Origin: Pseudomonadota bacterium
GTDB taxonomy: Bacteria > Pseudomonadota > Alphaproteobacteria > Micavibrionales > UBA2020
Direction: 5' to 3'
DNA: 64,000 nt
Assembly (NCBI GenBank): GCA_021845905.1
Contig: JAJZVA010000001.1
Span: 124,001 to 188,000, forward strand
In this document: positions 13,992 to 51,492 of the stretch, piece after piece
Position numbering within the stretch: the stretch's first letter is position 1
Layout of the letters: every line of letters begins with the position of its first letter
Program-made: the position numbers and the translations under genes
Notes under the pieces: generated by a model
What the model saw: the letters and a program-made list of their open reading frames with translations, nothing else
Told to the model about the DNA's origin: nothing
The model's database searches: none

Positions 13992-14768
13992 ATGCAAAAT
14001 CTCCTACAAGACATCATCGTCAACAATATCTTCGCGTTCCTGCTGATCTTCCTGCGCTTCGGCGTGGCGCTGATCATCATGCCGGGGATCGGCGACACGT
14101 TCGTCTCGCCGACGATCCGCCTGCTGTTCGGCATTGCCGTCAGCTTCGTGCTCACGCCCGTCCTGTCCGCGCACCTGCCCGCGATACCCTCCAACAACGT
14201 CGCGCTGATCATGCTGATGCTGTCCGAACTGATGATCGGCATCTTCATCGGCACGGTGATGCGCATCCTGATCTCGGCGCTCGACACGGCGGGAACGATC
14301 GTCTCGGTGCAGGCCGGGCTTTCCACGGCGACGATGTTCAACGCCACCACGGACTCGCAGGCGCCGGTGATGAGCGCGGTCTATTCCTCGCTCGGCGTGA
14401 CGCTGATCTTCGCAACCAACATGGACCACCAGATGCTCGCAGCGATCGTGAACAGCTATTCGCTCTTTCCCGCGGGCGGCGCGTTTCCCGATATCGGCTC
14501 GATGTCGGAAGTCATCACCCGTGTCACGTCCCTCGCCTTCCGCGTCGGCGTGCAAATCACCCTGCCGTTCCTCGTCGTCGGCACGTTGCTGCAGCTCGGC
14601 CTCGGCGTACTCGGCCGCCTGATGCCGCAACTGCAGATTTTCTTCGTCGCGTTGCCGGTGCAGATCCTGCTCAGCTTGCTGATTTTGGTGATGACCATGT
14701 CGGCGGGCGTCATGTACTGGCTGTCGACCTACGGCAACGTCCTTTCCAATTCACTGATACCGCAGTAG
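13992..14768 (+). CDS. fliR: Flagellar export protein FliR
   Basis: 258 aa polytopic; GIGDTFVSPTIRLLFGIAVSFVLTP; between fliQ and flhB. Confidence 0.93.
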   Translation: MQNLLQDIIVNNIFAFLLIFLRFGVALIIMPGIGDTFVSPTIRLLFGIAVSFVLTPVLSAHLPAIPSNNVALIMLMLSELMIGIFIGTVMRILISALDTAGTIVSVQAGLSTATMFNATTDSQAPVMSAVYSSLGVTLIFATNMDHQMLAAIVNSYSLFPAGGAFPDIGSMSEVITRVTSLAFRVGVQITLPFLVVGTLLQLGLGVLGRLMPQLQIFFVALPVQILLSLLILVMTMSAGVMYWLSTYGNVLSNSLIPQ

Positions 14769-21034: not shown

Positions 21035-21961
21035 ATGCCTGTGGTAGAAGCAGTTACGCCGCAAAAACAAGAAGATAACACGCCAGCGGGAACGGCAAAC
21101 CCCCGCTATGCGCAACGCTTCGTGAAAGGTCTCGTCGGAGACAATAAATTCTGGTCGCGCTTCGGGGCCGTGTTCAGCGGGATTAACCTGCTCGGACAAG
21201 GCGTCGTGGGCGGGCTGTGCGTCTTTTCCCCGGGGCTGGCGACGCAGATCGCCCACGTTATCGGCATCACCGCGCTCAGCACCACCGGCCTTGCCGCCAT
21301 GCCGCTGATCGCGCAGGCGGGCCTTGTTGCCGGCTCCATCGCGCTCATCGGCATCGGACTCTCCGCCATTGGCCTCGGTTTTCCCGGAGCATGGCAGCGC
21401 CTGGAAAAACGTTGCGCGGATACTTTCCCGAAATTCAACCCGCTCAGAAAGATCAGAGAACCGTTTTTCCGCGGACGCCGCAAGAAGCAAGTAACGCAAC
21501 CGGAACGGAAAGGCCCGCTCTCCAGCCTGAAATCGAAATTCAAAGAGCACCATATGGACGTTTTCCTGTCCGGCGTCACGCTTGAAGGCTCCACCGTCGC
21601 GGCTTTGGCCTGGCCGACGGTCATCGTCGCCATTGCTTCGGCGCCGCTCAGCGTTCTCGGTTGCACCGTCATGGCCTGGGCCGCGTTCAATACCGTCCTT
21701 TGCACCTTCGACATCTTCAATTCATCTAAAACGCTGGTTCAGGCTTATAAAACCGGCAACCGCAAAAGACTGGCGAAAAGAAGCGAGAAACGCGAGCGCA
21801 AAGCGGTGCATATCGCTCCGCCGCCCGTAGAGAAAGCCAAGGCGTTGCCCGCCGCCGCCACTCAGGCCTTCAACGACAACGTCGCGCCAGTCAAATCCGA
21901 TGCGTCGCTCATCGTAGCGCCGGCGGAGAAAAAATTTTCCAATGGGATAAATCCCCGCTAA
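21035..21961 (+). CDS. Hypothetical membrane protein
   Basis: 308 aa with several hydrophobic segments. Confidence 0.6.
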   Translation: MPVVEAVTPQKQEDNTPAGTANPRYAQRFVKGLVGDNKFWSRFGAVFSGINLLGQGVVGGLCVFSPGLATQIAHVIGITALSTTGLAAMPLIAQAGLVAGSIALIGIGLSAIGLGFPGAWQRLEKRCADTFPKFNPLRKIREPFFRGRRKKQVTQPERKGPLSSLKSKFKEHHMDVFLSGVTLEGSTVAALAWPTVIVAIASAPLSVLGCTVMAWAAFNTVLCTFDIFNSSKTLVQAYKTGNRKRLAKRSEKRERKAVHIAPPPVEKAKALPAAATQAFNDNVAPVKSDASLIVAPAEKKFSNGINPR

Positions 21962-22050
21962 AAAAACCGGCGCCACGCGCCCGTGCCGATTTTTCCCGCA
22001 CGCGCGCGCCGATGTGATATCATTGAGCGGCCACGACCAAGGGGAATCAT

Positions 22051-23886
22051 GTGAGCGTTGTTGATATACTCGCCTGCTTTGAACGGATAACAGACCAGTT
22101 TCTCCCGAAAGAAGAATTCGCCGCCAGACTCAACGCAGGACGCCGATTGCGCGTGAAATACAGCCTGGATATAAAAACGCCGGCGTTGCATATCGGCCAC
22201 GCGGTCAATCTCTGGCTTCTGCGCGCGATGCAGGATGAAGGCCACAAGGCGGTGATCGTCTTCTCCGACTTCACCAACCGCAACGGCGACGACGACGGAC
22301 GGCTGGAGACGATCTGGAACATTCCCGCGGCGGAAGCCGACGAGCGCATCGCCGCACTCACCGAACAGCTGAAAATAATTCTCCGCTTCGACAGCCCGGA
22401 CCTGCTCGAAATCCGCAGGAGCTCCGAATGGTATGACGCCATGGGCGTTCAGGACATGCTCGATATTTTCTCGCTCGTCACGCACGCGCGGCTCATCTCG
22501 CGGGTTGATTTTCAGGCGCGCATCGCGGAGGGAACCGAAATACACTTTAACGAACTCGTCTACCCCATCCTGCAAGGCTACGATTCCTGCATGGTGCGGG
22601 CGGACATCGCCCTGCTCGGCTCGAACCGCCTGTTCAACGAGTCGCTCGGCCGCCTGTTGCAGGAGAAGCACAAGCAAAAGCCGCAAACCCTGCTCACCAC
22701 GATCATCACGCCCGGCATCGACGGACGCAAAAAACAATCGCCCCGCCGCCATAACGACATCTCCCTGCTGCACGCGCCGCGCGACAAGTTCGGCCGCGTC
22801 ATGCGCATCCCCGACGCGCTGATCGGCGAATATTTCAAGGTCTACACCGACGTTTCACCGGAAAAAATAGCCGCCGCGCTCAGGAAAAGCCCGCGCGACG
22901 CGAAAATCGACCTCGCCGTCGCCATCGTCGCCCGCTATCACGGCGCGGAAACGGCGCGCACGGAACGCGACTGGTTCGACAATACCATTTCAAAGGGTTA
23001 CATCCCCGACGATCTGCCGACACTCGTGCTCAACGCGAGCGATATGGAGGCGCTCGACCTCGTTGTTCTCGCGCGCCCGCGCAAAAGCCGCGGCGACTCG
23101 CGCCGCCTGATTCTGCAGCGCGGCGTTTCCCTCAACGGACGCAAGATCGCGCGTCCGGATCAGGAACTCTTTCTCAAGGACAACGACACCCTGCAAGTCG
23201 GACGGCTGAAATGGCTGCGCATCAGGGTCGAAGAGCCTCCAGTTTTCCACACGGAACGGCTGGAAATCCGTCCCGTTCAGGTGCGCGACATACAAAACAT
23301 CTCGAAGAACATCCCCATCGAGGACATCAACAAATACATCGTCCGTTTCAGCAACAAAAAGAAAAAGACCGAAACCGACATAAGGGACGCCTTCAAGAAA
23401 ATCATCCTGCAATCGGGTGAAAAGCATGAAGGCCTGTGGATGATCTCGCTGAAGGACAATCCCGGCACCCCGCTCGGGATAGCCTACCTGCGCAGCGACA
23501 GGTGGGACAAGCCGCAGAACATCTGGATATCTCCGGAAGTCGTCAATCCTGAAACGCTCGCCAAGCAGGCCATGGCCGAGCTCAGCGTGCAGGCCCTGCT
23601 CAGCCTCGATCCGCAAAGCGCGGCCTTCCAGAAAGCTTTCGCCATCGTGACAGCGCCGCGCGACTACGAAGCGCTCTACGACATCGTCAGGAACATCAAT
23701 CCCGAATTTCTCGACAGGGGCCTCGTGCCCGAGGGCATGCAGGGCTTTACCTACGAAGGCTGGGAAAAAATGCAGCAGTGGCGGCGCATCACGACGCCGT
23801 GGCTCTTCAAGGAGGATCCGCGCGCGATCTTCAATAAAAAATTCAACCCGGCGCAAACACCCGAACACAATCCGAAAGACAAATAA
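22051..23886 (+). CDS. Tyrosyl-tRNA synthetase-like / S4 / GNAT-like fusion protein
   Basis: LHIGHAVNLWLLRAMQDEGH (HIGH), YPILQGYD, KFGRVMRIPDALIGEYF, S4-like RRLILQRGVSLNGRKIARPDQEL, then ~200 aa beginning FHTERLEIRPVQVRDI; GTG start. Confidence 0.8.
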   Translation: MSVVDILACFERITDQFLPKEEFAARLNAGRRLRVKYSLDIKTPALHIGHAVNLWLLRAMQDEGHKAVIVFSDFTNRNGDDDGRLETIWNIPAAEADERIAALTEQLKIILRFDSPDLLEIRRSSEWYDAMGVQDMLDIFSLVTHARLISRVDFQARIAEGTEIHFNELVYPILQGYDSCMVRADIALLGSNRLFNESLGRLLQEKHKQKPQTLLTTIITPGIDGRKKQSPRRHNDISLLHAPRDKFGRVMRIPDALIGEYFKVYTDVSPEKIAAALRKSPRDAKIDLAVAIVARYHGAETARTERDWFDNTISKGYIPDDLPTLVLNASDMEALDLVVLARPRKSRGDSRRLILQRGVSLNGRKIARPDQELFLKDNDTLQVGRLKWLRIRVEEPPVFHTERLEIRPVQVRDIQNISKNIPIEDINKYIVRFSNKKKKTETDIRDAFKKIILQSGEKHEGLWMISLKDNPGTPLGIAYLRSDRWDKPQNIWISPEVVNPETLAKQAMAELSVQALLSLDPQSAAFQKAFAIVTAPRDYEALYDIVRNINPEFLDRGLVPEGMQGFTYEGWEKMQQWRRITTPWLFKEDPRAIFNKKFNPAQTPEHNPKDK

Positions 23887-26812: not shown

Positions 26813-27739
26813 TTAATACCAGACGCTCCGCGTTCTGTGCGGTTTTCGTTCATATATATCGGGGTCATACCCGCGATGCCAGAGCATATGATCGATGTTG
26901 ACGGATGTTATGCCGCCTCCGAGCGCCTTCCGCATGCATTCGACAACATGGATTGCCGACGCGCGGAGCTCGATTTCTTTTTCAGAACCGTCGTGAATGG
27001 CTTCATCCGTTGTATATTCCAGTATGCCGTCGCAACGCAGCACATGCGGCACCATATTATCGGCGAAGCAGGTCAGCCTGTCCACATCGCGCAAGTCGCC
27101 AAGCGCAAGATTCATGTCGGCTCCCAAAATCTGCGCGCGCTTCAGAATGGGAACATCGCGCCCTTTGTAATGATGCACGTCACGGAAATGCGGCCACGCG
27201 CCGACCGTCTCGGCCAGCGCCGCCGCAGAATGACCGCAGGCGGAAAGCAGGTTCAAAACCTTGCCGCCGTATTCGGAGACGATTTTCTCTCCCGTCGCGC
27301 GCAGATGGCTGGCGAAGTTATGCAGCAGTTCATCGAGATGCGGATGCCGATCCAGGGAAATGGACAGCAACTCCGACAAATCTTTTGCCGTCACGCGCGT
27401 CCAATCCTGCGGCGTGACGAAATTGTCCTGTTCGAAGGCTTTTTTCAATCCGCGCGCGATCACGTCGTACTCAAGCTCAATGCCCGCTTCCTTTGCGATC
27501 ATGAAATATCCGGAGCCGAAATTGACGCTGTTGAGCGCGAGAATGTAAGCCGCCGTCTTTTCACGATCAGTGGAAACATAATGATGCTCCGCCTCCAATT
27601 CCGTCGTGACGGAATATTTCCCGACGATAAACCGCGCATAGGCGGGGATTTCATCATGATTGATTTTGACGTGAGACACCTGCGCGGCCACTTCCGCGCA
27701 CGCGGGGGCGATATCCGCAACGCGCATCATGCCACCCAT
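26813..27739 (-). CDS. Queuosine-salvage-family protein (DUF2419/Qng1-like)
   Basis: LALNSVNFGSGYF; LKRAQILGADMNLALGDLRDVDRLTCFADNMVPHVLRCDGILEY resembles the DUF2419 core; adjacent to tgt. Confidence 0.8.
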   Translation of the reverse strand: MGGMMRVADIAPACAEVAAQVSHVKINHDEIPAYARFIVGKYSVTTELEAEHHYVSTDREKTAAYILALNSVNFGSGYFMIAKEAGIELEYDVIARGLKKAFEQDNFVTPQDWTRVTAKDLSELLSISLDRHPHLDELLHNFASHLRATGEKIVSEYGGKVLNLLSACGHSAAALAETVGAWPHFRDVHHYKGRDVPILKRAQILGADMNLALGDLRDVDRLTCFADNMVPHVLRCDGILEYTTDEAIHDGSEKEIELRASAIHVVECMRKALGGGITSVNIDHMLWHRGYDPDIYERKPHRTRSVWY

Positions 27740-29193: not shown

Positions 29194-30459
29194 ATGGACG
29201 ATGAAGTTGTCAGAATGATGGATGGAAGGCTACACCTTTACCGTCGTGAAGGGAGCAAATACTGGCAATGCGCTGCCTATATGAATGGCCATAATTACCG
29301 CCAAACCACCAAGGAAAGCAACATTGCCCATGCCAAAGCCTTTGCCAAAGACTGGTACATGGAACTCTACGTCGAGGAGCGCCGCCGCAAGCGCGGCGGG
29401 GAATCGCTTCTTGTAGACAGTTTTATTGAAGTCACCGCCTCCTCGCCTGACCGCCGCCAGCGCCACCTCAAAGGCGGCGTGACCTTCCGGCAGGCTACGG
29501 ATATATTTTTTAAGGAATATGAAACCATAACCCATGGTGAGCGTAATGCTGAATACGTTGCTGGGAAAAGGCATCATATCAGAGTCCATTTATTACCCTT
29601 CTTTGGCGACAAGGCATTGAGCGAGATTACCGCGGGACTGGTGCAGGAATATCGCGCATATCGCCAAACCTCCCGTCTCGATCCAAAAACAAAAAAGCCA
29701 AAAAAACCTGCGCGCGCCACGCTGCATAGTGAAATTGTGACCCTCAGACAAATCCTGAAAATGGCCAACCGGAAAGGGTGGATTGTCGCCGTACCGGACT
29801 TGTCGACGGCCTATAGGTCATCCGGCAAGGTCGAGCATCGCGCATGGTTTTCTCCCACTGAGTATAAAATGCTCTATGAACATACCCGCAAACGCGCCCA
29901 AAACCCGCCCAATCCGCGCTGGAAAGACATTTGCGAGACATTCCATGACTATGTGCTGTTCATGGGGAATACGGGATTGAGGCCGGATGAATCTGCACGC
30001 CTTGAAATGCGTGACGTTACGATTGTACACGACGAAGCAACGAGCGAGAATATCCTCGAAATCGAAGTGCGCGGCAAGCGCGGCGTCGGTTATTGCAAAT
30101 CCATGCCAGGGGCCGTCCTGCCCTTTGAGCGTCTTTGCAAGCGCAAGAACCTTAATCCTACTGACAGGATATTCGGCAAAACACCGCGTGAATTGATGAA
30201 CACTGTTCTTGATGAACTCAATTTGAAATTCGACCGCGATGGACATGTACGCACATGTTATAGCCTCCGCCATACTTATATCTGCCTGAGATTGCTCGAA
30301 GGCGCGGACATCTATCAGGTGGCGAAAAACTGCCGTACCTCTGTTGAAATGATCGAAAAGCACTATGCACGGCATCTAAAGAACAATATCGATACAGCCG
30401 CCATAAACGTGATGAAACCTAAAAACAGGCCTAAAAACAAAGGCAAAAAAGATCATTAA
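29194..30459 (+). CDS. Tyrosine recombinase/integrase
   Basis: 421 aa; MGNTGLRPDESARLEM, CYSLRHTYICLRLLEGADIYQVAKNCRTSVEMIEKHYARH (R...HxxR...Y). Confidence 0.95.
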   Translation: MDDEVVRMMDGRLHLYRREGSKYWQCAAYMNGHNYRQTTKESNIAHAKAFAKDWYMELYVEERRRKRGGESLLVDSFIEVTASSPDRRQRHLKGGVTFRQATDIFFKEYETITHGERNAEYVAGKRHHIRVHLLPFFGDKALSEITAGLVQEYRAYRQTSRLDPKTKKPKKPARATLHSEIVTLRQILKMANRKGWIVAVPDLSTAYRSSGKVEHRAWFSPTEYKMLYEHTRKRAQNPPNPRWKDICETFHDYVLFMGNTGLRPDESARLEMRDVTIVHDEATSENILEIEVRGKRGVGYCKSMPGAVLPFERLCKRKNLNPTDRIFGKTPRELMNTVLDELNLKFDRDGHVRTCYSLRHTYICLRLLEGADIYQVAKNCRTSVEMIEKHYARHLKNNIDTAAINVMKPKNRPKNKGKKDH

Positions 30460-30524
30460 CCCCCTCATATAAAATACTTCTTGGGCTTGCCTTAAACCGG
30501 ATTCTAAGCTAAAAGCTATTCCGT

Positions 30525-30608
30525 GCCCCTGTGGCGGAATTGGCAGACGCGCTGGATTCAAAATCCTGTTCTGGCAACAGAGTGTCGGTTCGACCCCGAC
30601 CGGGGGCA
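30525..30608 (+). tRNA. tRNA-Leu(CAA), intact, inside the element
   Basis: Acceptor GCCCCTG/CGGGGGC, loop TTCAAAA, long variable arm, T-stem GTCGG/CCGAC, encoded CCA at 30609-30611. Confidence 0.95.
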
Positions 30609-30731
30609 CCACTTCCCTCCGAAATCCGTATCCCGAAACAGCCGAAGAACTTCGGCGCGAAATACGTTACCGTGGAGCACCAAGGTCGAACGACCGGCTG
30701 CGAGACGCGCGCAATGACAGGCGAGCGCCTG

Positions 30732-33675: not shown

Positions 33676-34008
33676 TCATCTTTCTTCCAGCAGCGCTTTC
33701 CTCACATCTTCCTCAGACCAATGAAGCCGCTGCGGCGCGCCACTCAGGAGGGTGGCGCGCTTTTTGGTGATGACGGTGCCGACTTTATGCGGCAGGAGTT
33801 CTCTGGCGACGGTGTTTTCGAGGAGTTCGGATTTCAGGATGGTGAGTTTGATGAAGTCGCCGTCCATCTCAATGACTTGCGCGATGATCTTTTGCTTGCC
33901 GACGGGGCGGGGCTTGCTACGCCGTCTTGTTTTTCTGCGCGGCCAGATCGCCTCCGTCCATTCTATGACGTCGGAGGTAACAAAACTGTCTGATTGCTCC
34001 CACGTCAT
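33676..34008 (-). CDS. Hypothetical protein downstream of relaxase
   Basis: Overlapping operon with relaxase. Confidence 0.5.
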   Translation of the reverse strand: MTWEQSDSFVTSDVIEWTEAIWPRRKTRRRSKPRPVGKQKIIAQVIEMDGDFIKLTILKSELLENTVARELLPHKVGTVITKKRATLLSGAPQRLHWSEEDVRKALLEER

Positions 34009-35921
34009 TGTGGCCTCCGTTGTGCATTAAATTTTGCGGAGGCCTTGCGGGATTTCTCTGGCTTGACGGCGCGTGCATCATCGTCCGGACGCAGGCCCGC
34101 GCGGCGGAGGAGTTCTTTTGTTTCAAGGACACTGGAGCGCAGGTTGACCGTCGCCATAGGCGGATCGATTGGCGGGCGCGGACGGGGCGTAAACACGGTT
34201 TTCAGAAGCTCGCTGTTGCTCTGCTGACGCAAGGCATCGGTATAGGCACGCTCATCCAGCCGCTGTTCCGGCGGCGGGGACATGACGCTGATCTCCCATC
34301 GCGGGATGCCGTTCAAGGCATAGCTCATGTTCATGGCGATGTCGTAAAACTGCCTGTTCGCCGCAATTTTGCGGTTTTCCTCTTCCAGCTTCACTTGTAA
34401 TTCAGCGTATCGCCGGATGTATTCATTGTACTCTGCCTGCCGCTCGGCGTATTCGCGTTCTCTTTCCTGCGCCATTTCCTGACGCTTTTCTTGCGTGGCT
34501 TTGAGGTTCAGCGTTTCAAGCGTGACCTCGATCATGCGCCGCAGCGCGCCGCGCATATCGTCGGAGAGAAGGCTGCTCTCAAGTGCAGATTGCAACTGGG
34601 TAATATCGCCCGTCAGCAGGGCGATCTTGCTTTGCACCTCGGCCATTTCTGCCTTAATGGAAACGGCAGTGGAGGGTTTGACGGTTTGTAGCGGCTCCGT
34701 GGCCGTCGCAACATAGCCCGCGATCTCCCGCCGAATGCGCAAAGCCTCTGTTTTTTGCTCTTCCTTATAGACCTTGACGGTCTTTTGCAGTTCCTGCCGC
34801 TCCTGCAGGTGCGACCGCACAAGCTCGTGCAGCTCCTGCCTGTCGCGTTCCAGCGCGGCGCGGGTCTCGGCTTCGTTCTGGGCACGGACTTTTTTATATG
34901 CGCCTGTGGCCTTGTGCCAGATGCCGCGAAATCCCCTTGGTATCCGCGCCACGCGAACGCGGGTCTCTTCAACCCAGCGGGCTTGCTGTTTTTCAATGAG
35001 AGTCTGCCGTTCTTTGCGCTGCACCGCAACCATGGCGCGGATTTCGCGCACCAATGGCGCGCGCACGTCTTTCGACCGCCGTTTGGCTTCGGCGAGATAG
35101 TCCGTCAGGTTCTCGTCCATGCGGGCGGAGAGGAATTCCTTCGCCTGCCCGATAGCGGGCAGAGCTTCCGGTTTGCCGAGGCGGGCTTTGAGGTCGCGTG
35201 TGCCGATGTCGAGCCAGCGCGTCAGGGAATAGACGCCGCCCGTGATATCGAGCGCGACGAAGCCGCGCCGGTCGCCGCGGGCAAGCAAAAACCCGCGCTC
35301 CTGCAGGGCGCGGGCAAAGGTTTCCTTGCTGTCGGACTGCGCCCATGCACTTTTGAGCAGGGCTTTCAGCGCCTCCGGGTCTTGCGAGAAGCGCACGGCT
35401 TGCCGGTATTCGTGCCGCGTCAACTGCCACGGGCTGCGATCCGATGCACGCATCATGCCTTTCGGCAGTTTCCATCCATATTTAAGAAATAAAAAGCGCG
35501 ATATTTCCATGAGCTTCAGCTTGAAGTGGCTCATGCGGACGGCGATCATCCGCTGTGCATGCTCCGACCACTTGAGCCGCGACCAGACGCAATGACAGTG
35601 CCGCCGCCCGTTTTTCTCGTGAAATACGATAATGCGCGGCTGATCGACCAGACCCAGCTTTTTCTCGACATCTGTAATGGCAGATTCGAAGTCGCCGACA
35701 GGCACGTCGGCATATTCTGGCGGGCTTAAAGACAGCGAGAACATGAACTGGCGACAGCTTGTGCCGCGACTAATGGCTTCGATCTCCTGCAATGCCCCTG
35801 AGAGATCGTCGGCGACAAAGCCGCGTATCTCGTGGACTGTGATATGGTCGTTCTCGTCACCATTCAGCAGGTGTTTGGCCAGTTCCCCGGTTCCTCTGCG
35901 CTGACTGGCCTTGAGGATCAT
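34005..35921 (-). CDS. Relaxase/mobilization nuclease
   Basis: GTSCRQFMFSLSLSPPE and IIVFHEKNGRRHCHCVWSRL (HxH metal-binding motif), long coiled-coil C-terminus. Confidence 0.88.
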   Translation of the reverse strand: MILKASQRRGTGELAKHLLNGDENDHITVHEIRGFVADDLSGALQEIEAISRGTSCRQFMFSLSLSPPEYADVPVGDFESAITDVEKKLGLVDQPRIIVFHEKNGRRHCHCVWSRLKWSEHAQRMIAVRMSHFKLKLMEISRFLFLKYGWKLPKGMMRASDRSPWQLTRHEYRQAVRFSQDPEALKALLKSAWAQSDSKETFARALQERGFLLARGDRRGFVALDITGGVYSLTRWLDIGTRDLKARLGKPEALPAIGQAKEFLSARMDENLTDYLAEAKRRSKDVRAPLVREIRAMVAVQRKERQTLIEKQQARWVEETRVRVARIPRGFRGIWHKATGAYKKVRAQNEAETRAALERDRQELHELVRSHLQERQELQKTVKVYKEEQKTEALRIRREIAGYVATATEPLQTVKPSTAVSIKAEMAEVQSKIALLTGDITQLQSALESSLLSDDMRGALRRMIEVTLETLNLKATQEKRQEMAQEREREYAERQAEYNEYIRRYAELQVKLEEENRKIAANRQFYDIAMNMSYALNGIPRWEISVMSPPPEQRLDERAYTDALRQQSNSELLKTVFTPRPRPPIDPPMATVNLRSSVLETKELLRRAGLRPDDDARAVKPEKSRKASAKFNAQRRPQ

Positions 35922-37190: not shown

Positions 37191-37357
37191 CGAGAGTTTT
37201 ATTGACCAAAGTCAGTAGAACATCTGCATCTCTCACAATTTTTAATAAAATTTAAACATCTGCGGCGTAGTCTGGAAAGAACGGAGTTACATCATTTTGA
37301 CGGCGCGTTTCAGCGCCGTTGCTATATTGGGAATTTATGCTACGGAGGGATTTTTTA

Positions 37358-40300
37358 ATGGGCAAAATCTTATCTAGGATTCCTTCATTTTCCCGCCGCC
37401 TGCAGCGTGCAGGATTTATCGTTTTTATTGCAGCAACGACAATATCATCGCTTTTTACAAAACCGGCGTACGCTATCACAACCTCATCTTCAACAGCTTC
37501 CCAATACATTTTAGAGCAGGCAAATATTAAAACTTTGCCTCCCGCAAGGAGTACGGGTGTCCATCATTTTGTCAAGGCCCAAGCAGCGCTTGGCAAATTT
37601 TTCTACACCTTACCTGGCATACAACAGCCTTTTGAAGGGTGGGCTGCGTTTGACCAAAACTGCAACTATCTGGCACCCTTAAGTGCGCAAATCATCACGC
37701 CACCGTCTCATGGTACTATTAGTTTCAGTACATTCTATGGCACTTCTCTCTTTGGAAGCTGCGCGGGAGTATACGGGAATTACGATGTAGCTTCCTATAT
37801 CTGGACAGACCAAAACAGTTCCCCCAGCACGACAGACTCGTTCGTCCTGCGCTGGACGAACCCGGAAAACGGTCAATCATTCGACAGCGACTGGACTGTT
37901 ATTCTCTTGGCTCCACCGATTGACACATCTAAAGCTCTCGGCAAACAAGGAGGTCCTTGCGGGTGTAATGGTACAGCCCCCGGCACCAGCAATCCATCAA
38001 ATACCGGAGCTGTCAGTGGCGGAGAGCCTTTTAGCATAGGGATTGGCAACGTCTTTAACCAGGTGACGGACTATACGACGTCTGGTCGTAATCCATTGCG
38101 GTTTGTGCGGTATTACAACAGCATGTCAGTGCCGAGATACGCCATGAATCTAGGGTCTAACTGGCGTGACAACTATGATAGATACCTGAGTGTCTATACG
38201 GGGGCTGTGACGGCGTATCGCGCCGACGGACAAGTGCTGACCTTCTCACAGGACGCGAACGGCAACTGGACGAGCGACACGGATGTTGACGCGAAGCTGA
38301 CCAATCTCGGCACGTCGTGGTATCTGACCGACCACAACGACACGGTCGAGACCTATCAGCAGACCACAAGCGGCAGCGAGGCGCTTCTGCAAACCATTGT
38401 TTCGCGCGACGGCTACACGCGCACGCTCTATTATAATGGCTCCAATGTACTGCAGCGCGTCGCGGACTCCTACGGCCGGCAGCTGACTTTCACTTACAAT
38501 CAGGGGCTGCTCTCGCAAGTCGGCACGGCGGGGTCGCTGGTGCTGACTTATGATTATACGTCGAGCGGCGTGACGCCGGGACGGAACGACCAGCTCGCCT
38601 CTGTCACCTACAACACCACGCCTGCGACCAAACAGGTCTATGCCTACGTGAACAATTACGACCTTGCCTCGATCACCGACGAGAACGGCAACGTCTTCGC
38701 AAGCTGGACATATGACAGCCAGAACCGCGCCACATCGAGCCAGCACGCGGGCGGGGCAGATCTGACGCAGATCGCCTATAACGATACGGACGGCAGCCGC
38801 ACGGTCACGGGGCCGCTCGGACAGCAGACGGTTTACACTTTCCAGACCCTGCAGGGCGTGCCGAAGGTCGTGAAGATCGAGCGCACGGCTTCCGGGACGG
38901 TTCCGGCGGGCACGGAGACTTTCACCTATGATTCCAATGGCTACACGGCGAGCAAGACGGACTGGAACGGCATCGAGACAGACTATATAAATGATGCCCA
39001 CGGCGACCCGACCAGCATCACCGAGGCCGCCGGCACGCCGCAGACGCGCACAACCACCATCACCTATGACGCGACGCACGTGCATCTGCCAGACCAGATC
39101 GCCGCGCCCGGCCTGACCACGACCTTCACCTACGACGCCAACGGCAACCCGCTTACCCGCACCGGAACGGACACGACCGGCAATGGCGGCACGCGCACCT
39201 GGGCCTACACCTACGATGCCACCGGCCATATGCTGACCATGACCGACCCGCGCGGGAACAAGACCGTCTATACATATAATAATGACAGCGTCGCGACCGT
39301 CACCAACGCGCTTGCGCAAACCTCGAAGATCACGTCCACCAACCTCAGCGGCCTGCCGCTCGCAATGACAGATCCGAACGGCGTGACAACGACGTTCACC
39401 TATGATGTGCGCAATCGCCTTCTCAGCCGCACGATTGACGGCGCGGCCACCACCTTCACCTATGATCCGGCGGGCAATCTCACGTCCATCACCCTGCCCG
39501 ACGGCGCGATGCTCGATTATACCTATGACGCCGCCCACCGTGTGACGGGAGTCTCCAGCAACGCCGGCGACAGCATCCATTACACGCTCGATGCCAACGG
39601 CGACATCACGCAGCAGCAGGTCGAGGGGGGTAGCACCATCGCCAAAACCCAGTCCGCCGTGTTCGACAGCCTCGGCCGCATGCTCAGGCAGATCGGCGCC
39701 TATAACGAGACGACCTCCTATACTTACGACGCCAACGGCAACAACATCGGCATCACCGATGCCCTGAACAACACCACGGCGCAGAGCTTCGATGCCCTGA
39801 ACCGGCTGATCAAGTCGGTTGATCCGCTGAGCAACGCGACGTCCACTGCCTATGACGCGCAGGACAACCTCACCTCCGTCACCGACCCGCGCAATCTTAG
39901 CACCACTTATACATATGACGGCTTCGGCGACGTATTGACAGAAACCTCTCCCGATACCGGCACGACGTCCTTCACCTACGACGCCATGGGCAACCCCGTG
40001 ACGCAAAAGGACGCGCGCGGCGTGGAGACGGACCGCACGTTCGATGCCTTGAACCGCGTCACGGCCGAGACTTATCCTTCCAGTTCCGGCGACAACGTGA
40101 CCTACACTTACGATCAGGGCCAATACGGCATCGGCCGCCTGACCAGCTTCACGGACGCGAGCGGCGGCACTTCATATACCTATAACGCGCGGGGGGATAT
40201 CACCGGAGACACCCGCACTATCGGCAGAAACAGCTACACCACGTCCTATGCCTACGACCTTGCCGACCGGCTGGCCGCGATCACCTACCCCGACGGGCAA

Positions 40301-42043
40301 ACGGTCAATTACGCCCGCGACGCCTTCGGACGGATCTCCGGCGTCACGCTGGCGGCAGCGCAGGATCACGACCGCGACCATGACCGCGACGACTTCTGGC
40401 ATCACGACAAGCGCCGCGGCGCGCAGAGCCTGCAGCTGCTCTCCGGCGTCGGTTATGAACCCTTCGGCCCGGTTGACGGCTTCACCTGCGGCAACGGGAT
40501 CAAAGAAACCCTGACGTACGATCAGGACTACCGCCTGACCGGCATCCTCGCCAAAGGCGGCAGCACCATCCAGAACCTGACATATGCTTATGACGGCGTC
40601 TCCGACATCGCGTCGATCACCGACAACGCCGCGACAGGCGGCAAGAACCGGCGCGACCGCGACGGCGACAACGATGACAGGGACAACGGCTTCTCCTTAA
40701 GCCAGACCTTCACCTACGACGCGGACATGCGCCTGCTCACCGCCGCGGGCGCGTACGGCACGCAAACTTTCGCCTACGACGCCGACGGCAACAGGACAAG
40801 TTTCTCGGTCACGGGCGCAGGCCGCCCTGAATACCGCGACGGTCGCGACCATAGCGCACCGCTCGCCGGCGCTTACACCTACGACTCAGGCTCGAACCGC
40901 CTCCTCGGCGTCACCGGCGCGAAGAACGTGCAATACGGCTACACCGCGAACGGCGACCTGCAGCGCGAGAGCGACGGCTACGACGTCCGCCAGTTCGTCT
41001 ACGACGCCCGCAACCGCAACACGGCGATCGAAGCGGGCGGCGAAGGCGACGGCAGTGCGCGCTACGTCTACAACGCTCTCGGCGAGCGCGTGCGGAAATC
41101 CGGCGGCGGCCATGACGACTTCAGCGGCTTCGGCGGCAAGACCGACTTCATCTACGACGAACAAGGCCACCTGATCGCCGAAGCGAACGACGGCCGCGTG
41201 ACGAAGGAATACGTCTATCTCGGCAGCCTGCCCGTCGCGGAACTGGAGAACAATCAGGTCTATTACATCCACGATGACCACCTCGGCCAGCCGCAAACCA
41301 TCACCGACGCGAGCCAGCATGTGGTCTGGAGCCGCGCCGCCGATCCCTTCGGCAACACCACCGCCGTCAAGGGCGACCCCGATCTCACCAACCTCCGCTT
41401 CCCGGGCCAGTATCATGACGCCGAATCCGGCCTCGACTATAACATGTTCCGCTCTTACAACCCATCCATCGGACGCTACACGCAATCTGATCCCATCGGA
41501 CTATTGGGCGGCATTAATACCTATGCCTATGTCGTGGGGAATCCGGTTAACTTTGTTGACCCAAGTGGACTTGATACTCTGCAGATCGGTTTTGCTGGCG
41601 GGGGATCAATATTCGGTTTTGTTATTCCGCAAGGAGGATTCGGAATCACTATTGATACTCATGGCAATATAGGAACTTATACATACGGCGGACTTGGCGG
41701 TGGAATAGGCGCTGGCGGCAGCTTTGGAGGAAGCATACAATTCTCTAGTGCCCAAACAATCTATGATCTTCAAGGCTACTTCTATAATGCAGGTTTTCAT
41801 GGAGGCGCTGGCTATGGGGGATCGTTTGATGTCTTCAGCGGCAATAGTAATAATGGGCCAGTGATGGGCGGCGGGGTAACTCTTGGAGGCGGTGAAGGCG
41901 CATCTGGGACGCTTACAAAAACTTGGACACAAGTTTGCGGGGCGCAAGGTTGCACTCCTGCTATCCCCACTTCAGCACCTCAAACTCCTGCGCCTCAAAA
42001 ACCGAAGACAAATGAATGTCTCCCCAGCAGTCCAAATAGCTGA
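37358..42043 (+). CDS. RHS/YD-repeat protein with Gly-rich variable C-terminus
   Basis: N-terminal hydrophobic segment, GGEPFSIGIGNVFNQVTDYTTSGRNPLRFVRYYNS, many YD repeats, core DAESGLDYNMFRSYNPSIGRYTQSDPIGLLGGINTYAYVVGNPVNFVDPSGL. Confidence 0.95.
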   Translation: MGKILSRIPSFSRRLQRAGFIVFIAATTISSLFTKPAYAITTSSSTASQYILEQANIKTLPPARSTGVHHFVKAQAALGKFFYTLPGIQQPFEGWAAFDQNCNYLAPLSAQIITPPSHGTISFSTFYGTSLFGSCAGVYGNYDVASYIWTDQNSSPSTTDSFVLRWTNPENGQSFDSDWTVILLAPPIDTSKALGKQGGPCGCNGTAPGTSNPSNTGAVSGGEPFSIGIGNVFNQVTDYTTSGRNPLRFVRYYNSMSVPRYAMNLGSNWRDNYDRYLSVYTGAVTAYRADGQVLTFSQDANGNWTSDTDVDAKLTNLGTSWYLTDHNDTVETYQQTTSGSEALLQTIVSRDGYTRTLYYNGSNVLQRVADSYGRQLTFTYNQGLLSQVGTAGSLVLTYDYTSSGVTPGRNDQLASVTYNTTPATKQVYAYVNNYDLASITDENGNVFASWTYDSQNRATSSQHAGGADLTQIAYNDTDGSRTVTGPLGQQTVYTFQTLQGVPKVVKIERTASGTVPAGTETFTYDSNGYTASKTDWNGIETDYINDAHGDPTSITEAAGTPQTRTTTITYDATHVHLPDQIAAPGLTTTFTYDANGNPLTRTGTDTTGNGGTRTWAYTYDATGHMLTMTDPRGNKTVYTYNNDSVATVTNALAQTSKITSTNLSGLPLAMTDPNGVTTTFTYDVRNRLLSRTIDGAATTFTYDPAGNLTSITLPDGAMLDYTYDAAHRVTGVSSNAGDSIHYTLDANGDITQQQVEGGSTIAKTQSAVFDSLGRMLRQIGAYNETTSYTYDANGNNIGITDALNNTTAQSFDALNRLIKSVDPLSNATSTAYDAQDNLTSVTDPRNLSTTYTYDGFGDVLTETSPDTGTTSFTYDAMGNPVTQKDARGVETDRTFDALNRVTAETYPSSSGDNVTYTYDQGQYGIGRLTSFTDASGGTSYTYNARGDITGDTRTIGRNSYTTSYAYDLADRLAAITYPDGQTVNYARDAFGRISGVTLAAAQDHDRDHDRDDFWHHDKRRGAQSLQLLSGVGYEPFGPVDGFTCGNGIKETLTYDQDYRLTGILAKGGSTIQNLTYAYDGVSDIASITDNAATGGKNRRDRDGDNDDRDNGFSLSQTFTYDADMRLLTAAGAYGTQTFAYDADGNRTSFSVTGAGRPEYRDGRDHSAPLAGAYTYDSGSNRLLGVTGAKNVQYGYTANGDLQRESDGYDVRQFVYDARNRNTAIEAGGEGDGSARYVYNALGERVRKSGGGHDDFSGFGGKTDFIYDEQGHLIAEANDGRVTKEYVYLGSLPVAELENNQVYYIHDDHLGQPQTITDASQHVVWSRAADPFGNTTAVKGDPDLTNLRFPGQYHDAESGLDYNMFRSYNPSIGRYTQSDPIGLLGGINTYAYVVGNPVNFVDPSGLDTLQIGFAGGGSIFGFVIPQGGFGITIDTHGNIGTYTYGGLGGGIGAGGSFGGSIQFSSAQTIYDLQGYFYNAGFHGGAGYGGSFDVFSGNSNNGPVMGGGVTLGGGEGASGTLTKTWTQVCGAQGCTPAIPTSAPQTPAPQKPKTNECLPSSPNS

Positions 42044-43905: not shown

Positions 43906-46900
43906 TTAGAAATGAAGCGTCGCACGCAGTTCTCCGGTGTGCGATGTATAGTCAGACTTGTACTGGAAGTCGTAATTCGCCGAAAAATCCCAGTTTGAAA
44001 CTGTCGCATAAACGACATTCGCACCAAGATCAAAGGTGTTGCGCGCAGGCGATGCGCCTGTCGTGGTAAAGAGCGTATTCGCCGGATCGCCCGTGAAGCT
44101 CGACGACGTCTGTACCTTATCGTCGATCGCACTATAGGTATAGCCCGCATGCACGCCCGGTTTCACGATATCGCCCTGATCGTCGGCTTTGATCTTCCAG
44201 CGCGCGTTGACGCCAAGCCCCAGATCCAGAACGTTCTGGTCGTTGCCCTTGACGGTCAGGTCGGAAGCGCCGGCGCCCGTTTCCGTGTAACCCGCCGTTT
44301 TCAGGTAGGTATAGTTAACGGAAGCGAGCGGCGTCAGCGTCATGCCACCCGACATGGCGTAGTTACGTCCCAAAGCGGCTCTGGCCGTGTACTGGTCGCT
44401 ATGGGTCTTCCCGACGGCAGTGTCACCGGCGAGGTCGGCATTGTGGCGGTCGCTGGTGAGCGTATTATAGGCGTAGCCCAACTGACCGTTGACGAAAGTA
44501 TTCTCCGGCATCTTGTATGTGCCGTAGAAGTTTCCGCCATAATTGTCCATGGTCGTCCTGGTCGTGTTCGCATTATGCGAATCGATCCACGACTGGCCAT
44601 AATTGAGGGCGAAACCGACGACGCTGCCGCCTGGCAGGTTCTGAGTGTCGATACCGACAGCGCCACCCGCCGTATTGCTGCTGAAACCGTCGACGCTGCT
44701 GCGCGTATCCTGATGCGCGTGCTGGCCATAGCCTTCAAACCATGTGTTGAGGCCCTGTGACGAATAGCCCGCCGCAACACCGCTGGTCGTATCGCCGGTG
44801 CGCAACGCCGCCAGACGGGTATCGATAATTCCCCCCGTCTCGTCGCCGACAGCCAAAGCGGCCTGCTCGGCGCCGCCATCAACCGTCGGCTGCAAGGACT
44901 GGAGGCTGGTGTGCAGGGCCGCAGTCGAGCCGCCGGAAGCGAGCAAGTTCTCGGCGGTGGCGAGGTTGCCCGTCGCGGTGGCCTTGATCGCGTCCAGAAC
45001 CGAACCGACGGCGAGGTCGTTGCTCGTCAAAGCCGATCCCAGCGACGAGGTGATCGCCTCGCGCGTCGCGTCGACTTCGAGCTGATGGCCCGAAACGACT
45101 TCCTGATACTGCATGAGGCCGACGGTGGATGCCGTCGTCGTCACTGTCTGGCCGTTGACCTTCAGCGTGGTGCCGAGGACGTTGGAAGCGTCGGTGCCGG
45201 ACACAAGTACGTAGTTATGCGTCGCACTGACGTTGTTCGTGAAGTTGACGGTCGAGCCGGTGGCCAGGGTGACAAGGTTCGCGCCCGCGGCCACGTTCCC
45301 GTATACAGTGGAGCTGTAAGACGTGGCGTTCAGGGTCTGGCCCGCACCGAGAGTGAAGGTTCCGCCATCCGTCAGGGTGTTGATCCCGAGATTGGTGGTG
45401 TCGGCGGCGGCCACGTTGCCGGACGTCGTCACGGTGATCGCCGTGCCAGCCGTCGGATTGTTCAGGGTCAGTGCTTTCAGGACGCCCGTGTTGCCGATCG
45501 TAGAGACCGAGGCGCTCGTCGCGTCGAGCGTGGCCGTGCCGACCCCAGAGCCGACCGCGCCGCCCGTGCCGTTGAGGGAGCCGGTGAAGGCACCGTCAAA
45601 CGTCGTCGAACCCGTCGCGGCCGCGCCGAAGACGAGGGCGCCGTTCGCCGTGCTTTCGAAGGTCGCCGCGTCTGCGCCGGTCACGTTGATCGTCGTCGCA
45701 GCGACGGCGTTGACGAACTTCGTTGCCACCGTCGAGCTAGCATTGACGGTCTTCAGCGAAGTTGTGCCGATCGCGCCGGTAATGGTTTGCGTGCCGGTGC
45801 CGTCCAGCGTCAGCGTGCCATTGCCGGCAGCGCCGCCGATGACGCCGCCGGTGAAGGTCGCCGCCGCGCCCTTGACATCGAGGGTGGCGTTTCCTGCCGC
45901 GCCGTCCGTCAGGTTGGTCGCGCCGGTGACCGTGTTGGTCGCGCCGTCGAGAGTCAGGGTCGCGTTCGCGCCCGCCGTCGCCGCGGCCGTAACGTTCAGA
46001 CTGCCCGCATCCGTGAAGGCGCCGGTGACCGTCGCGGATTCAGCCTGTGCGGTCGTTGCGCCTGCACTCGATACGCTCATGCCGGACGTGCCGGCCGACA
46101 AAGTGCTGCCGAAGGCCATGCTGCCGGCATTGGCCGCGTCCGTAGTGCCGCTAATGGCGACCGACCCCGCGTAGACCGCGCCGGAAACCGACGAGGCCGT
46201 GCCTTCCACGCCGGCTTTAAAAACCTTAGCCTCATCCGTTGACGAGCCGATCGTGCCGGTGATCGTCGAGGCGCCGTTCAGCGTGACCGTGCCTTGATTG
46301 GTTGTTGCCGTGGTGATGTTGCCTGTCAGGTTCGCACCCGCGCCGAGAGTAAGGGTGCCGTCATTCGTGCCGAAGGCGACGGTGCCGACGTTGTTCGTGC
46401 CCACGCCGTTCAGGGCGACGGCGTTCGTGCCGGTGAAATCCAGAGCCGTCGCGTTGACAAGGCCGCTGATGGAGGCGTTGCCGCCCGCCCCCGCGTTGAT
46501 CAGTTTCAGCAGTTTCGATGTCGTGCCGACCGTGCCGGTGACGGCGCCCGTGCCGTCAAACGTCAGGGTGCCGGTGTTGGTGGTCGCGGTGGTGATTGTG
46601 CTGGCCAGCGTGCCACCCGCGCCGATGTGGAGCGTGCCGTCTCCGTTGAAGGTCGTGTTGGTGACCGTGTCGGTGCCGGCGTCGTTCAGCGCGAGGGAGC
46701 CCGTGCTGGTGATGCTGAGGGTGGTCGCATTGACCGCGCCCGCGATGGAAGACGTCGTGCCGCTCGCGCCCGCGTCGACTTCATGCAGGAGAGTCCCCAC
46801 CGCGCCCCAAGCGCCCGCGCCCGTGATGGCATTGGACCCCTTCAAAATCACCGTGCCTTCGTCGGTCGCATTGGCAGCAATGCCCGCCGTCAACGTATCG

Positions 46901-47589
46901 GTCGTGTTGGCAGTGCCGAAAATCAGCTCGGCCTTGCCGCCCGTGCCGCCCGCGACGTCCTTCAGCGTGACGGCGCCGGTCAGCGTGTTGCTGGCATTGT
47001 TCAGGGTCAGGGTGGCGTCGGAGCCCGCGGCCGTGCCGGCCGTGATCGCCGTCGCGCCTGTGACCGCAGCCGCGCCAGTGACCGTCAGGTTGGTCGCGGC
47101 GGTCGAGGTCGTGCCAACGTTGTCGATGGTCAGCGCGCCGCCCAACGTCAGCGCGCCGGAGTCGGTCACGTTGACGGCCTTGTTCGCCGTGTTATTGTTG
47201 GTGATTGTCATCGCGTTGGCGCCAGTTCCCGAGTTCGTCACGGAGCCGATAGTGACGGAAAGAGGGTTGGTCGTCCCCGCGGCAGCCTGCGTAATGTTGA
47301 TCGCGCCCGCGCCCGCGACGCTGTTATCAATCGTGCCGAGAGAGAACGTATCCTTGTTCGCGCTTCCATCGTTCGCCGTCTGGTCATTGGTGACCGTCAG
47401 GGCAAACGTGGCAAGGTTGACGTTGTCGCCCTTCCCGGTGCCTACCGCAGGCAGACCGTTGGCGTTATAGCCCCATGTGCCGTTCGCGGTCAGCGTATCT
47501 GTCGCCGCCTGTGCTTGCGTTGAGAAAGCGGCGACCGCGACGAGAGCCGTCGTGGCGAGAAGAACTTTTCTAAGGCGAACGATGGGCAT
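43906..47589 (-). CDS. Type V autotransporter adhesin (repetitive passenger, C-terminal beta-barrel)
   Basis: Signal peptide, repetitive GTGA/TLT-rich passenger, barrel ending SHTGELRATLHF. Confidence 0.92.
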   Translation of the reverse strand: MPIVRLRKVLLATTALVAVAAFSTQAQAATDTLTANGTWGYNANGLPAVGTGKGDNVNLATFALTVTNDQTANDGSANKDTFSLGTIDNSVAGAGAINITQAAAGTTNPLSVTIGSVTNSGTGANAMTITNNNTANKAVNVTDSGALTLGGALTIDNVGTTSTAATNLTVTGAAAVTGATAITAGTAAGSDATLTLNNASNTLTGAVTLKDVAGGTGGKAELIFGTANTTDTLTAGIAANATDEGTVILKGSNAITGAGAWGAVGTLLHEVDAGASGTTSSIAGAVNATTLSITSTGSLALNDAGTDTVTNTTFNGDGTLHIGAGGTLASTITTATTNTGTLTFDGTGAVTGTVGTTSKLLKLINAGAGGNASISGLVNATALDFTGTNAVALNGVGTNNVGTVAFGTNDGTLTLGAGANLTGNITTATTNQGTVTLNGASTITGTIGSSTDEAKVFKAGVEGTASSVSGAVYAGSVAISGTTDAANAGSMAFGSTLSAGTSGMSVSSAGATTAQAESATVTGAFTDAGSLNVTAAATAGANATLTLDGATNTVTGATNLTDGAAGNATLDVKGAAATFTGGVIGGAAGNGTLTLDGTGTQTITGAIGTTSLKTVNASSTVATKFVNAVAATTINVTGADAATFESTANGALVFGAAATGSTTFDGAFTGSLNGTGGAVGSGVGTATLDATSASVSTIGNTGVLKALTLNNPTAGTAITVTTSGNVAAADTTNLGINTLTDGGTFTLGAGQTLNATSYSSTVYGNVAAGANLVTLATGSTVNFTNNVSATHNYVLVSGTDASNVLGTTLKVNGQTVTTTASTVGLMQYQEVVSGHQLEVDATREAITSSLGSALTSNDLAVGSVLDAIKATATGNLATAENLLASGGSTAALHTSLQSLQPTVDGGAEQAALAVGDETGGIIDTRLAALRTGDTTSGVAAGYSSQGLNTWFEGYGQHAHQDTRSSVDGFSSNTAGGAVGIDTQNLPGGSVVGFALNYGQSWIDSHNANTTRTTMDNYGGNFYGTYKMPENTFVNGQLGYAYNTLTSDRHNADLAGDTAVGKTHSDQYTARAALGRNYAMSGGMTLTPLASVNYTYLKTAGYTETGAGASDLTVKGNDQNVLDLGLGVNARWKIKADDQGDIVKPGVHAGYTYSAIDDKVQTSSSFTGDPANTLFTTTGASPARNTFDLGANVVYATVSNWDFSANYDFQYKSDYTSHTGELRATLHF

Positions 47590-49363: not shown

Positions 49364-50995
49364 ATGACAAAAAATGCAAGAGAAGATGCCGCGCTGGATG
49401 AAGCCCACGTCGGACACATCCGGGGTGCTTTAGGAACAATATTGCAGGACGACACAGGGCCGCGTTCCGGCTGGAAGGCAAAGTTGAAAACGCTGCTGGC
49501 CATCCTCGGCCCTGGCCTGATTGTCATGGTCGGCGATAACGATGCGGGGGCTTTTAGCACCTATACGCAAGCAGGACAGAATTACGGCACAACCCTGCTA
49601 TGGACGCTACTGCTGCTGGTTCCTGTCCTGTATGTTAATCAGGAAATGGTCTTGCGGTTGGGCGCAGTCTCCCGTGTCGGACATGCACGGCTCATTCTTG
49701 AGCGGTTCGGCAAGTTCTGGGGTGCTTTCAGCGTCATCGACCTGTTTTTGCTTAATGCCCTGACGATTGTCACGGAGTTTATCGGCATCAGCCTTGCCCT
49801 TAATTATCTCGGCCTGTCGAAAGAATGGGGTGTTGTCCTCTCGGCAGTGCTTATCATGGCGGCGGCAAGCACTGGAGATTTCCGCAAGTTTGAGCGTTTT
49901 TCTCTTATGTTGGTTGTTGGCAGCCTACTTCTGATCCCCGTCATTCTCAGCATCCACCCACCCATCGACCAGATCACCCATGATTTCTTTGTGCCACAAA
50001 TGCCGAAGGATGCCAAATTGAGTGATGTTATGCTGCTCATCATTGCCATTGTCGGAACAACTGTTGCGCCTTGGCAGCTTTTCTTCCAGCAAAGCTATGT
50101 CATCGACAAGCGCATCACCTCGCGCTTCATCCGCTATGAGCGCGTTGATCTCGCCATTGGTATCCTGCTGGTCATCATTGGCGGCGTTGCCATGATTGCC
50201 TTTGCAGCAGCTACCTATGCCGGACACACAGAGTTCGGCAATTTCACCGATGCAGGAGCTGTTGCTTTCGGATTGCAACAGTATGTCGGCCATATTCCTG
50301 CTGTGCTTTTTGCGCTTGCTCTGGTCGATGCCTGCATTATCGGCGCATCATCGGTCTCCCTCTCCACGGCCTATGCTCTCGGGGACGTGCTGTCTCTAAA
50401 ACATTCCCTGCACCGCAAGCCCAAGGAAGCAAAAGGCTTTTATGCTGTTTACTGTGGCTTGATCGCTCTGTCCGCTGCTTTGGTGCTGATCCCAGGTGTA
50501 CCGCTTGGCCTCCTGACCAATGCCGTCCAGACACTGGCAGGCGTTCTGCTGCCCAGTGCAACCGTCTTTTTGCTGCTGCTGTGCAATGACAAGGCTGTAT
50601 TAGGCCCTTGGGCTAATACACGTGGCCTCAATCTGTTTACAGGCGCAGTCATTGCCGTACTGGTCGTGCTGTCAATCATCCTGACAGCCTCCGTATTGTT
50701 CCCGGACATCAGTGAAAACCAGATCATTGGCATTCTTGTTGGCGGTGGGCTGCTTTCTCTGATTGTGACCCTCGGGGTCAAAATATTTGAACGCCGTTCC
50801 CGCAAGAAGAAGACAGATAAAGTCGATATTTCGGAGCGTAATACATGGCAAATGCCGCCACTCAAGCAGCTTGCACCCATGCAGCTAACCACGCTCAACC
50901 GTATCTGGCTTGCCGTCTTGCGGCTTTACCTGATCGTGGCAGGAGGTCTGGTTCTGGTGCGTATCGTTCAACTCGCTATGGGCGGTCAAGAATAA
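49364..50995 (+). CDS. NRAMP-family divalent metal transporter
   Basis: LGPGLIVMVGDNDAGAFSTYTQAGQNYGTTLLWTLLLLVPVLYVNQEMVLRLG. Confidence 0.93.
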   Translation: MTKNAREDAALDEAHVGHIRGALGTILQDDTGPRSGWKAKLKTLLAILGPGLIVMVGDNDAGAFSTYTQAGQNYGTTLLWTLLLLVPVLYVNQEMVLRLGAVSRVGHARLILERFGKFWGAFSVIDLFLLNALTIVTEFIGISLALNYLGLSKEWGVVLSAVLIMAAASTGDFRKFERFSLMLVVGSLLLIPVILSIHPPIDQITHDFFVPQMPKDAKLSDVMLLIIAIVGTTVAPWQLFFQQSYVIDKRITSRFIRYERVDLAIGILLVIIGGVAMIAFAAATYAGHTEFGNFTDAGAVAFGLQQYVGHIPAVLFALALVDACIIGASSVSLSTAYALGDVLSLKHSLHRKPKEAKGFYAVYCGLIALSAALVLIPGVPLGLLTNAVQTLAGVLLPSATVFLLLLCNDKAVLGPWANTRGLNLFTGAVIAVLVVLSIILTASVLFPDISENQIIGILVGGGLLSLIVTLGVKIFERRSRKKKTDKVDISERNTWQMPPLKQLAPMQLTTLNRIWLAVLRLYLIVAGGLVLVRIVQLAMGGQE

Positions 50996-51438: not shown

Positions 51439-51492
51439 ACTCAAAATCAGGTACCGCAAGGTGTGTTGGTTCGAGTCCGACCAGGGGCACCA
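51439..51492 (+). pseudogene. 3' half of split tRNA-Leu(CAA), including CCA
   Basis: ACTCAAAATCAGGTACCGCAAGGTGTGTTGGTTCGAGTCCGACCAGGGGCACCA. Confidence 0.93.

Follow-up and report, generated by a model that had tools for sequence, protein, structure and literature searches.

Why does a bacterial genome hold, beside its housekeeping enzyme, a second gene of the tyrosyl-tRNA synthetase (TyrRS) type that is altered in its active-site motifs and extended by an acetyltransferase-like domain? The gene, here TyrRS2, lies in the window, which means the whole stretch of 64,000 nucleotides that was analysed. The initial annotation had described a TyrRS-like protein with an S4 domain and a GNAT-like C-terminus, other than the housekeeping enzyme. 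It had taken the altered motifs as a sign of altered function, and had proposed as possibilities a role in amino-acid transfer or in resistance, or a small molecule as substrate.

Domain Parts and Paralogy of TyrRS2

The gene and its parts are listed in Table 1. A Shine-Dalgarno-like AAGGGG is found at 22039–22044, 6 nt 5' of the GTG. The protein has a class I catalytic fold in which HIGH is intact; its catalytic domain matches Pfam tRNA-synt_1b (E = 4e-34), and it scores 185 bits against TIGR00234 tyrS (cutoff 113.8). The motifs LHIGHAV, GSNR, and KKQSPR are present as first quoted, the last at residues 227–232, where relatives have xKQSKS. The YxxxQxxD tyrosine pocket is present in the window copy and carries Q175R in G002, and the loop at residues 72–85 is partly of low confidence in the predicted model. 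The S4 domain has a weak Pfam score (0.0016, below cutoff), and the stretch is covered by the T. thermophilus TyrRS alignment and by the predicted fold. The Pfam and TIGR00234 scores, this alignment, and the fold of the tail agree with the architecture first described.

Table 1. TyrRS2, its parts, and the gene upstream of it in the window.
Feature	Coordinates	Strand	Remarks
Gene of a 308-aa protein with hydrophobic stretches, no known family	21035..21961	+	89 bases upstream of the fusion gene
TyrRS-like/GNAT-like fusion gene (TyrRS2)	22051..23886	+	611 aa, GTG start
HIGH motif LHIGHAV, residues 46–52	22186..22206	+	Intact
Degenerate loop SDFTNRNGDDDGRL, residues 72–85	22264..22305	+	GDFTTRIGDPDG in relatives; D80 kept
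YPILQGYD tyrosine-pocket segment	22561..22584	+	Y171, Q175, D178 retained in the window
GSNR, residues 190–193	22618..22629	+	In place of GSDQ
KQSPRRHN, residues 228–235	22732..22755	+	In place of KQSKSxGN
Helical anticodon-binding region, residues 241–318	22771..23004	+	By homology to T. thermophilus TyrRS
S4-type RNA-binding domain, residues 319–395	23005..23235	+	T. thermophilus alignment, predicted fold
GNAT-like C-terminal domain, Acetyltransf_3 type, residues 397–585	23239..23805	+	Without Q/RxxGxG/A acetyl-CoA motif

As an isolated domain, the window tail matches Pfam Acetyltransf_3 weakly (0.0016, below cutoff), and all of the 16 homologous tails match it as isolated domains (best 1.2e-13). 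Stand-alone GNATs of the Acetyltransf_3 type, related to the tails, adjoin the fusion in G009, G012, G014, G017, and G010; that of G009 is 38% identical to the tail of the neighboring fusion over 128 residues (E = 2e-27). A model of the window tail, built without the stand-alone GNATs (mean pLDDT 68), had GNAT structures in all 50 matches listed, including SpeG and RimL, with a best E of 1.7e-4. At the sequence level, a profile search of the PDB with the tail returned no significant match; significant PDB matches came from the fold comparison only. DUF2156 was not among the Pfam matches of the window protein or of the tails. The Q/RxxGxG/A acetyl-CoA motif is kept only in the fusion locus L066 (EHRGQGF), partial in L073, and missing elsewhere, including in the window. 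Judged by homologous tails and predicted fold, the C-terminus is of GNAT origin and fold, of the RimJ/RimL type, as first supposed.

The genome of the window encodes three PF00579 proteins, namely the window protein, a TrpRS-like protein that carries KMSKS, and a canonical TyrRS whose motifs read KMGKTEGG and GADQ. The canonical tyrS is on another contig (G000:C26), and the sole tRNA-Tyr matched by a pattern search of the genome is about 2.3 kb from it. A canonical-type TyrRS was matched in each of the eight genomes searched within the genus. Because canonical tyrS and the sole tRNA-Tyr found are close to each other on another contig, the window gene is a paralog and not the housekeeping TyrRS. 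It is thus neither the sole functional tyrS of its genome nor a gene whose C-terminus lacks an acetyltransferase fold. A second, orthogonal tRNA-Tyr was considered and set aside, as the one pattern search gave a single tRNA-Tyr, though a strongly divergent tRNA could escape it. No tRNA-Tyr was found near the fusion loci of relatives.

Distribution, Origin, and Neighborhood

Among 57 genomes searched, strong matches were found in the window's own genome and in 16 of the 18 relatives of the same family. Other families of the order, represented by 38 genomes, had no fusion and gave only matches of 21–29% identity, mostly to their canonical TyrRS. A class-wide sample of 296 genomes had a full-length match in the window's own genome only, and six others matched over the synthetase part alone. 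In 85,488 species genomes scanned, the fusion turned up at about 20 loci, without exception in Alphaproteobacteria-like MAGs, of which two bear the name Micavibrio. Micavibrio stands under Bdellovibrionota in the NCBI taxonomy, most records with fusion loci are titled Alphaproteobacteria, and the window's family consists of Micavibrio-like Alphaproteobacteria. The scan also yielded a divergent sister, L073, with a similar tail, common gene order, and 35% identity. Two genomes of the window's genus (93 and 77% complete) gave no match, and the gene is therefore probably not essential.

The closest relatives outside the fusions are KQSKS TyrRSs of about 400 aa from Ktedonobacter, Nitrospina, Frankia, and Patescibacteria. 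Several KQSKS genomes have just two PF00579 proteins each, one of which must be TrpRS, so the KQSKS enzyme appears to be the sole TyrRS, hence functional, in Nitrospina, Frankia, and others. The three PF00579 proteins of Ktedonobacter suggest that its KQSKS TyrRS is one of two TyrRSs. KQ in the loop is normal in this subfamily and was rejected as a mark of new function.

In the maximum-likelihood tree, all fusions form one clade (100/99) within the KQSKS group (100/100), distant from the canonical TyrRS encoded in the window's genome, and the KQSKS group stands apart from the KMSKS and KMGKT types. The fusion clade is split into a supported paralog clade A (100/99), which includes the window copy, and B, which comprises the other fusions. 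The stem leading to the window's group has a length of 0.45, more than most branches within the fusion clade. The tree fits acquisition by transfer, followed by GNAT fusion and then duplication. The scattered KQSKS subfamily would be the parent, and the GNAT domain would have been gained early in the window's family. A phage origin was discarded, the single viral-contig match being distant and without the tail, and PADLOC anti-phage defense models gave no match to the window protein.

Homologues of the 308-aa protein are found directly upstream of the fusion gene in four of the five genomes with degenerate copies (window, G002, G004, and G005), with tandem copies in G004 and G005, and further off in G007. 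The family occurs in 9 of 14 genomes of the window's family and in none of four others of the order. Its link with the fusion gene is one of position, an association only. Clade B copies have as conserved neighbors the stand-alone GNAT and P0004, a hydrolase-like protein of no known family. The latter (L039 4245–5288) carries the motif FAYSAG, has no Pfam match, and is family-wide with one to four copies per genome, often beside a clade B copy. Functional links to both neighbors were considered and dropped as strict couplings, since the GNAT is missing from the window's genus and P0004 sits elsewhere in the window's genome. In genus g2 (L039 8744–10121), the two TyrRS2 copies are separated by a LysR regulator and a gene of the DOPA-dioxygenase family. 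At L073 1786–8268, the divergent fusion adjoins ORFs that are ATP-grasp-like, AstE/AspA-like, and of the GCS2 family.

Elsewhere in the window (29194–30611), a Phage-integrase-like ORF (Phage_int_SAM) lies directly upstream of tRNA-Leu(CAA) at 30525–30611, and G004 has a similar pair (L036 13353–14543 with tRNA-Leu at 14596). The 3' end of the tRNA-Leu (30591–30611) is repeated at 51472–51492 with 3 mismatches in 21 positions, where none is expected in shuffles. Between the repeats are a relaxase (34005–35921), an RHS-repeat protein (37319–42043), an autotransporter (43906–47589), and an Nramp transporter (49364–50995); the segment 30591–51492, about 21 kb long, may be an integrated island.

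Erosion of the Active Sites and Selection

Most fusion members retain GSDQ and KQSKS. The D and Q of G(S/T/A)DQ and the second lysine of the loop are invariant in the 35 table sequences outside the window's genus. Two copies are intermediate, G003 having GSDQ with KQSRS and G007 having GSDR with KQSQR, and four core copies (window, G002, G004, and G005) have GSNR with KQSPR. Residue 231, the second loop lysine, is accordingly proline in the core copies and glutamine or arginine in the intermediates. A parallel series in the genus runs from IGDPDG through LGDHDG to NGDxDG, with IGDP replaced by NGDD in the window. Both G(S/T/A)DQ and a KMSKS-type loop with its second lysine are thus missing from the window copy. 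Altered function cannot be read from the change of KMSKS to KQ alone, which is normal in a widespread subfamily.

Across intact relatives 104 positions are conserved; 18 of these have changed in every one of the four core copies, and all but one of the 18 belong to the catalytic fold. The anticodon-helical region has lost none of its 15 conserved positions, and S4 one of six (K to R). Because S4 has few conserved positions, this contrast between catalytic and RNA-binding parts is suggestive, not strong. With the D and Q of GSDQ, the second lysine, IGDP, and the GNAT acetyl-CoA motif all gone, the motif losses speak for lost catalysis rather than for a new catalytic function. Sequence is nevertheless not sufficient ground for calling an enzyme with a changed active site dead. 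The window copy may still bind some substrate or be active to some degree, since HIGH, K228, D80, Y171, Q175, and D178 are retained, and R232 or R233 could replace the lost lysine.

The fusion protein is under purifying selection. Among the five degenerate copies, dN/dS of the whole protein is about 0.06–0.33 (0.14–0.19 between the window copy and its relatives), and it is lowest in the S4 part in most pairs. Between the window's genome and G004, dN/dS is 0.16 for the fusion, 0.08 for the neighboring tgt, 0.15 for the gene at 26813–27739, and 0.20 for L,D-transpeptidase. These values were obtained by Nei-Gojobori simple counting, with moderate to high dS.

Candidate Roles and Known Systems

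Because both sites are eroded, the likeliest reading would be a double pseudo-enzyme, a tentative view with somewhat less than even confidence. A second, non-housekeeping TyrRS homologue of the KQSKS subfamily would have been fused early in the family to a GNAT of the RimJ/RimL type. Its synthetase site has eroded in steps within the genus, GSDQ becoming GSNR, KQSKS becoming KQSPR, and IGDP becoming NGDD; with the GNAT part devoid of its acetyl-CoA-binding motif, the chemistry of both domains would be lost. Selection apparently retains the protein mainly via its anticodon-binding and S4 parts, which makes RNA binding its most likely mode of action. The putative ligand would be tRNA-Tyr or a tRNA-like fold, and the role regulatory or scaffolding.

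That the protein is still active as an auxiliary TyrRS, its loop being unusual and its use confined to special conditions, is unlikely. Arg232 or Arg233 would stand in for the second lysine, and the tail would be an appendix. Human cytosolic TyrRS functions with KMSSS, and the purifying selection and the conservation of the catalytic residues listed above and of the tRNA-binding part are as such an enzyme would require. TyrZ of Bacillus subtilis, which is reported to serve under special conditions, is a precedent (PMC9437257). Against it stands the loss of all three residues that are invariant in the 35 outside sequences, namely both residues of GSDQ that differ in GSNR and the loop's second lysine, and in G002 the glutamine that contacts the tyrosine amine is gone as well (Q175R).

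A history in two stages is rather improbable; the fusion would be a new bifunctional enzyme that depends on tRNA and is still intact in most genera, and it would later have become a non-catalytic RNA-binding regulator in the window's genus. A neofunctionalised tRNA-dependent enzyme, above all in the intact relatives, whose synthetase part would activate or bind tyrosine or an analogue for transfer to an acceptor by the GNAT-type part, is more doubtful still. LysX and ErdS are precedents for joining synthetase and transferase (PMC9437257), an intact stand-alone GNAT adjoins the fusion in several relatives, and the sister locus L073 adjoins ATP-grasp-like, GCS2, and AstE genes. However, the tail is Acetyltransf_3 and not the DUF2156 of LysX/ErdS, hardly any member retains its cofactor motif, the window's genus has no stand-alone GNAT, and the window copy is without some adenylate-site residues. 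For this copy, nothing was found that points to the amino-acid transfer, resistance, or small-molecule substrate first proposed.

A pseudogene in decay is very unlikely. The stepwise motif decay along the genus and the two genomes without a copy are what gradual loss would leave, but the frame is open over 610–617 aa in five species, and the dN/dS range given above includes values for the window copy as low as those of neighboring functional genes. Least probable of all is a copy conferring resistance to a natural TyrRS inhibitor, after the manner of the LeuRS AgnB2 against agrocin 84, in whose self-immunity KQSKS was reported (PMC5059758) and which the suggested second copy in Ktedonobacter recalls. 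Resistance requires an activity whose catalytic residues the window copy has lost. KQSKS, apparently the sole TyrRS type in Nitrospina, Frankia, and others, is no resistance mark, and the surroundings of the window gene showed no recognisable genes for making an inhibitor.

Synthetase duplicates whose catalysis was lost or altered have more than once been turned into regulators, splicing factors, or biosynthetic enzymes. The fusion family offers within itself a graded series, from apparently intact TyrRS-GNAT to copies with both sites eroded, all under purifying selection, which makes it testable with few purified proteins why non-charging synthetases are kept. The transferase domain of LysX and ErdS has the GNAT fold. 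Synthetases fused to transferases are already known, as are paralogs that took on other roles (PMC9437257); a literature search limited to open-licence PMC papers turned up none that describes TyrRS joined to GNAT.

LysX (LysRS-MprF) and ErdS (AspRS-DUF2156) resemble the window protein as fusions of a synthetase with a transferase (PMC9437257), but belong to the other synthetase class and another GNAT family, and tRNA-dependent transfer is not indicated in the window protein. TyrZ of B. subtilis, like the window gene, accompanies a housekeeping TyrS as the second TyrRS of its genome (PMC9437257); unlike the window protein it is active and L-Tyr selective, and a GNAT tail is not reported for it. 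The KMSKS-type TyrRSs of T. thermophilus (1h3e/9sfb) and A. baumannii (6bqy) are similar to the window protein in fold over residues 5–395, including S4, and bacterial enzymes of this type have HIGH and the tyrosine-pocket residues in common with it. The window protein differs from them by KQSPR and GSNR for KMSKS and GTDQ, by the GNAT-like tail, and by not being the housekeeping enzyme. The KQSKS-type TyrRSs share the KQ loop and about 45% identity over residues 5–393, but are without a GNAT tail, have intact catalytic residues, and appear to be the sole TyrRS in some genomes. Among GNATs, those of the RimJ/RimL/SpeG type share family and fold with the window tail, which is set apart by its eroded acetyl-CoA motif and its fusion to a synthetase.
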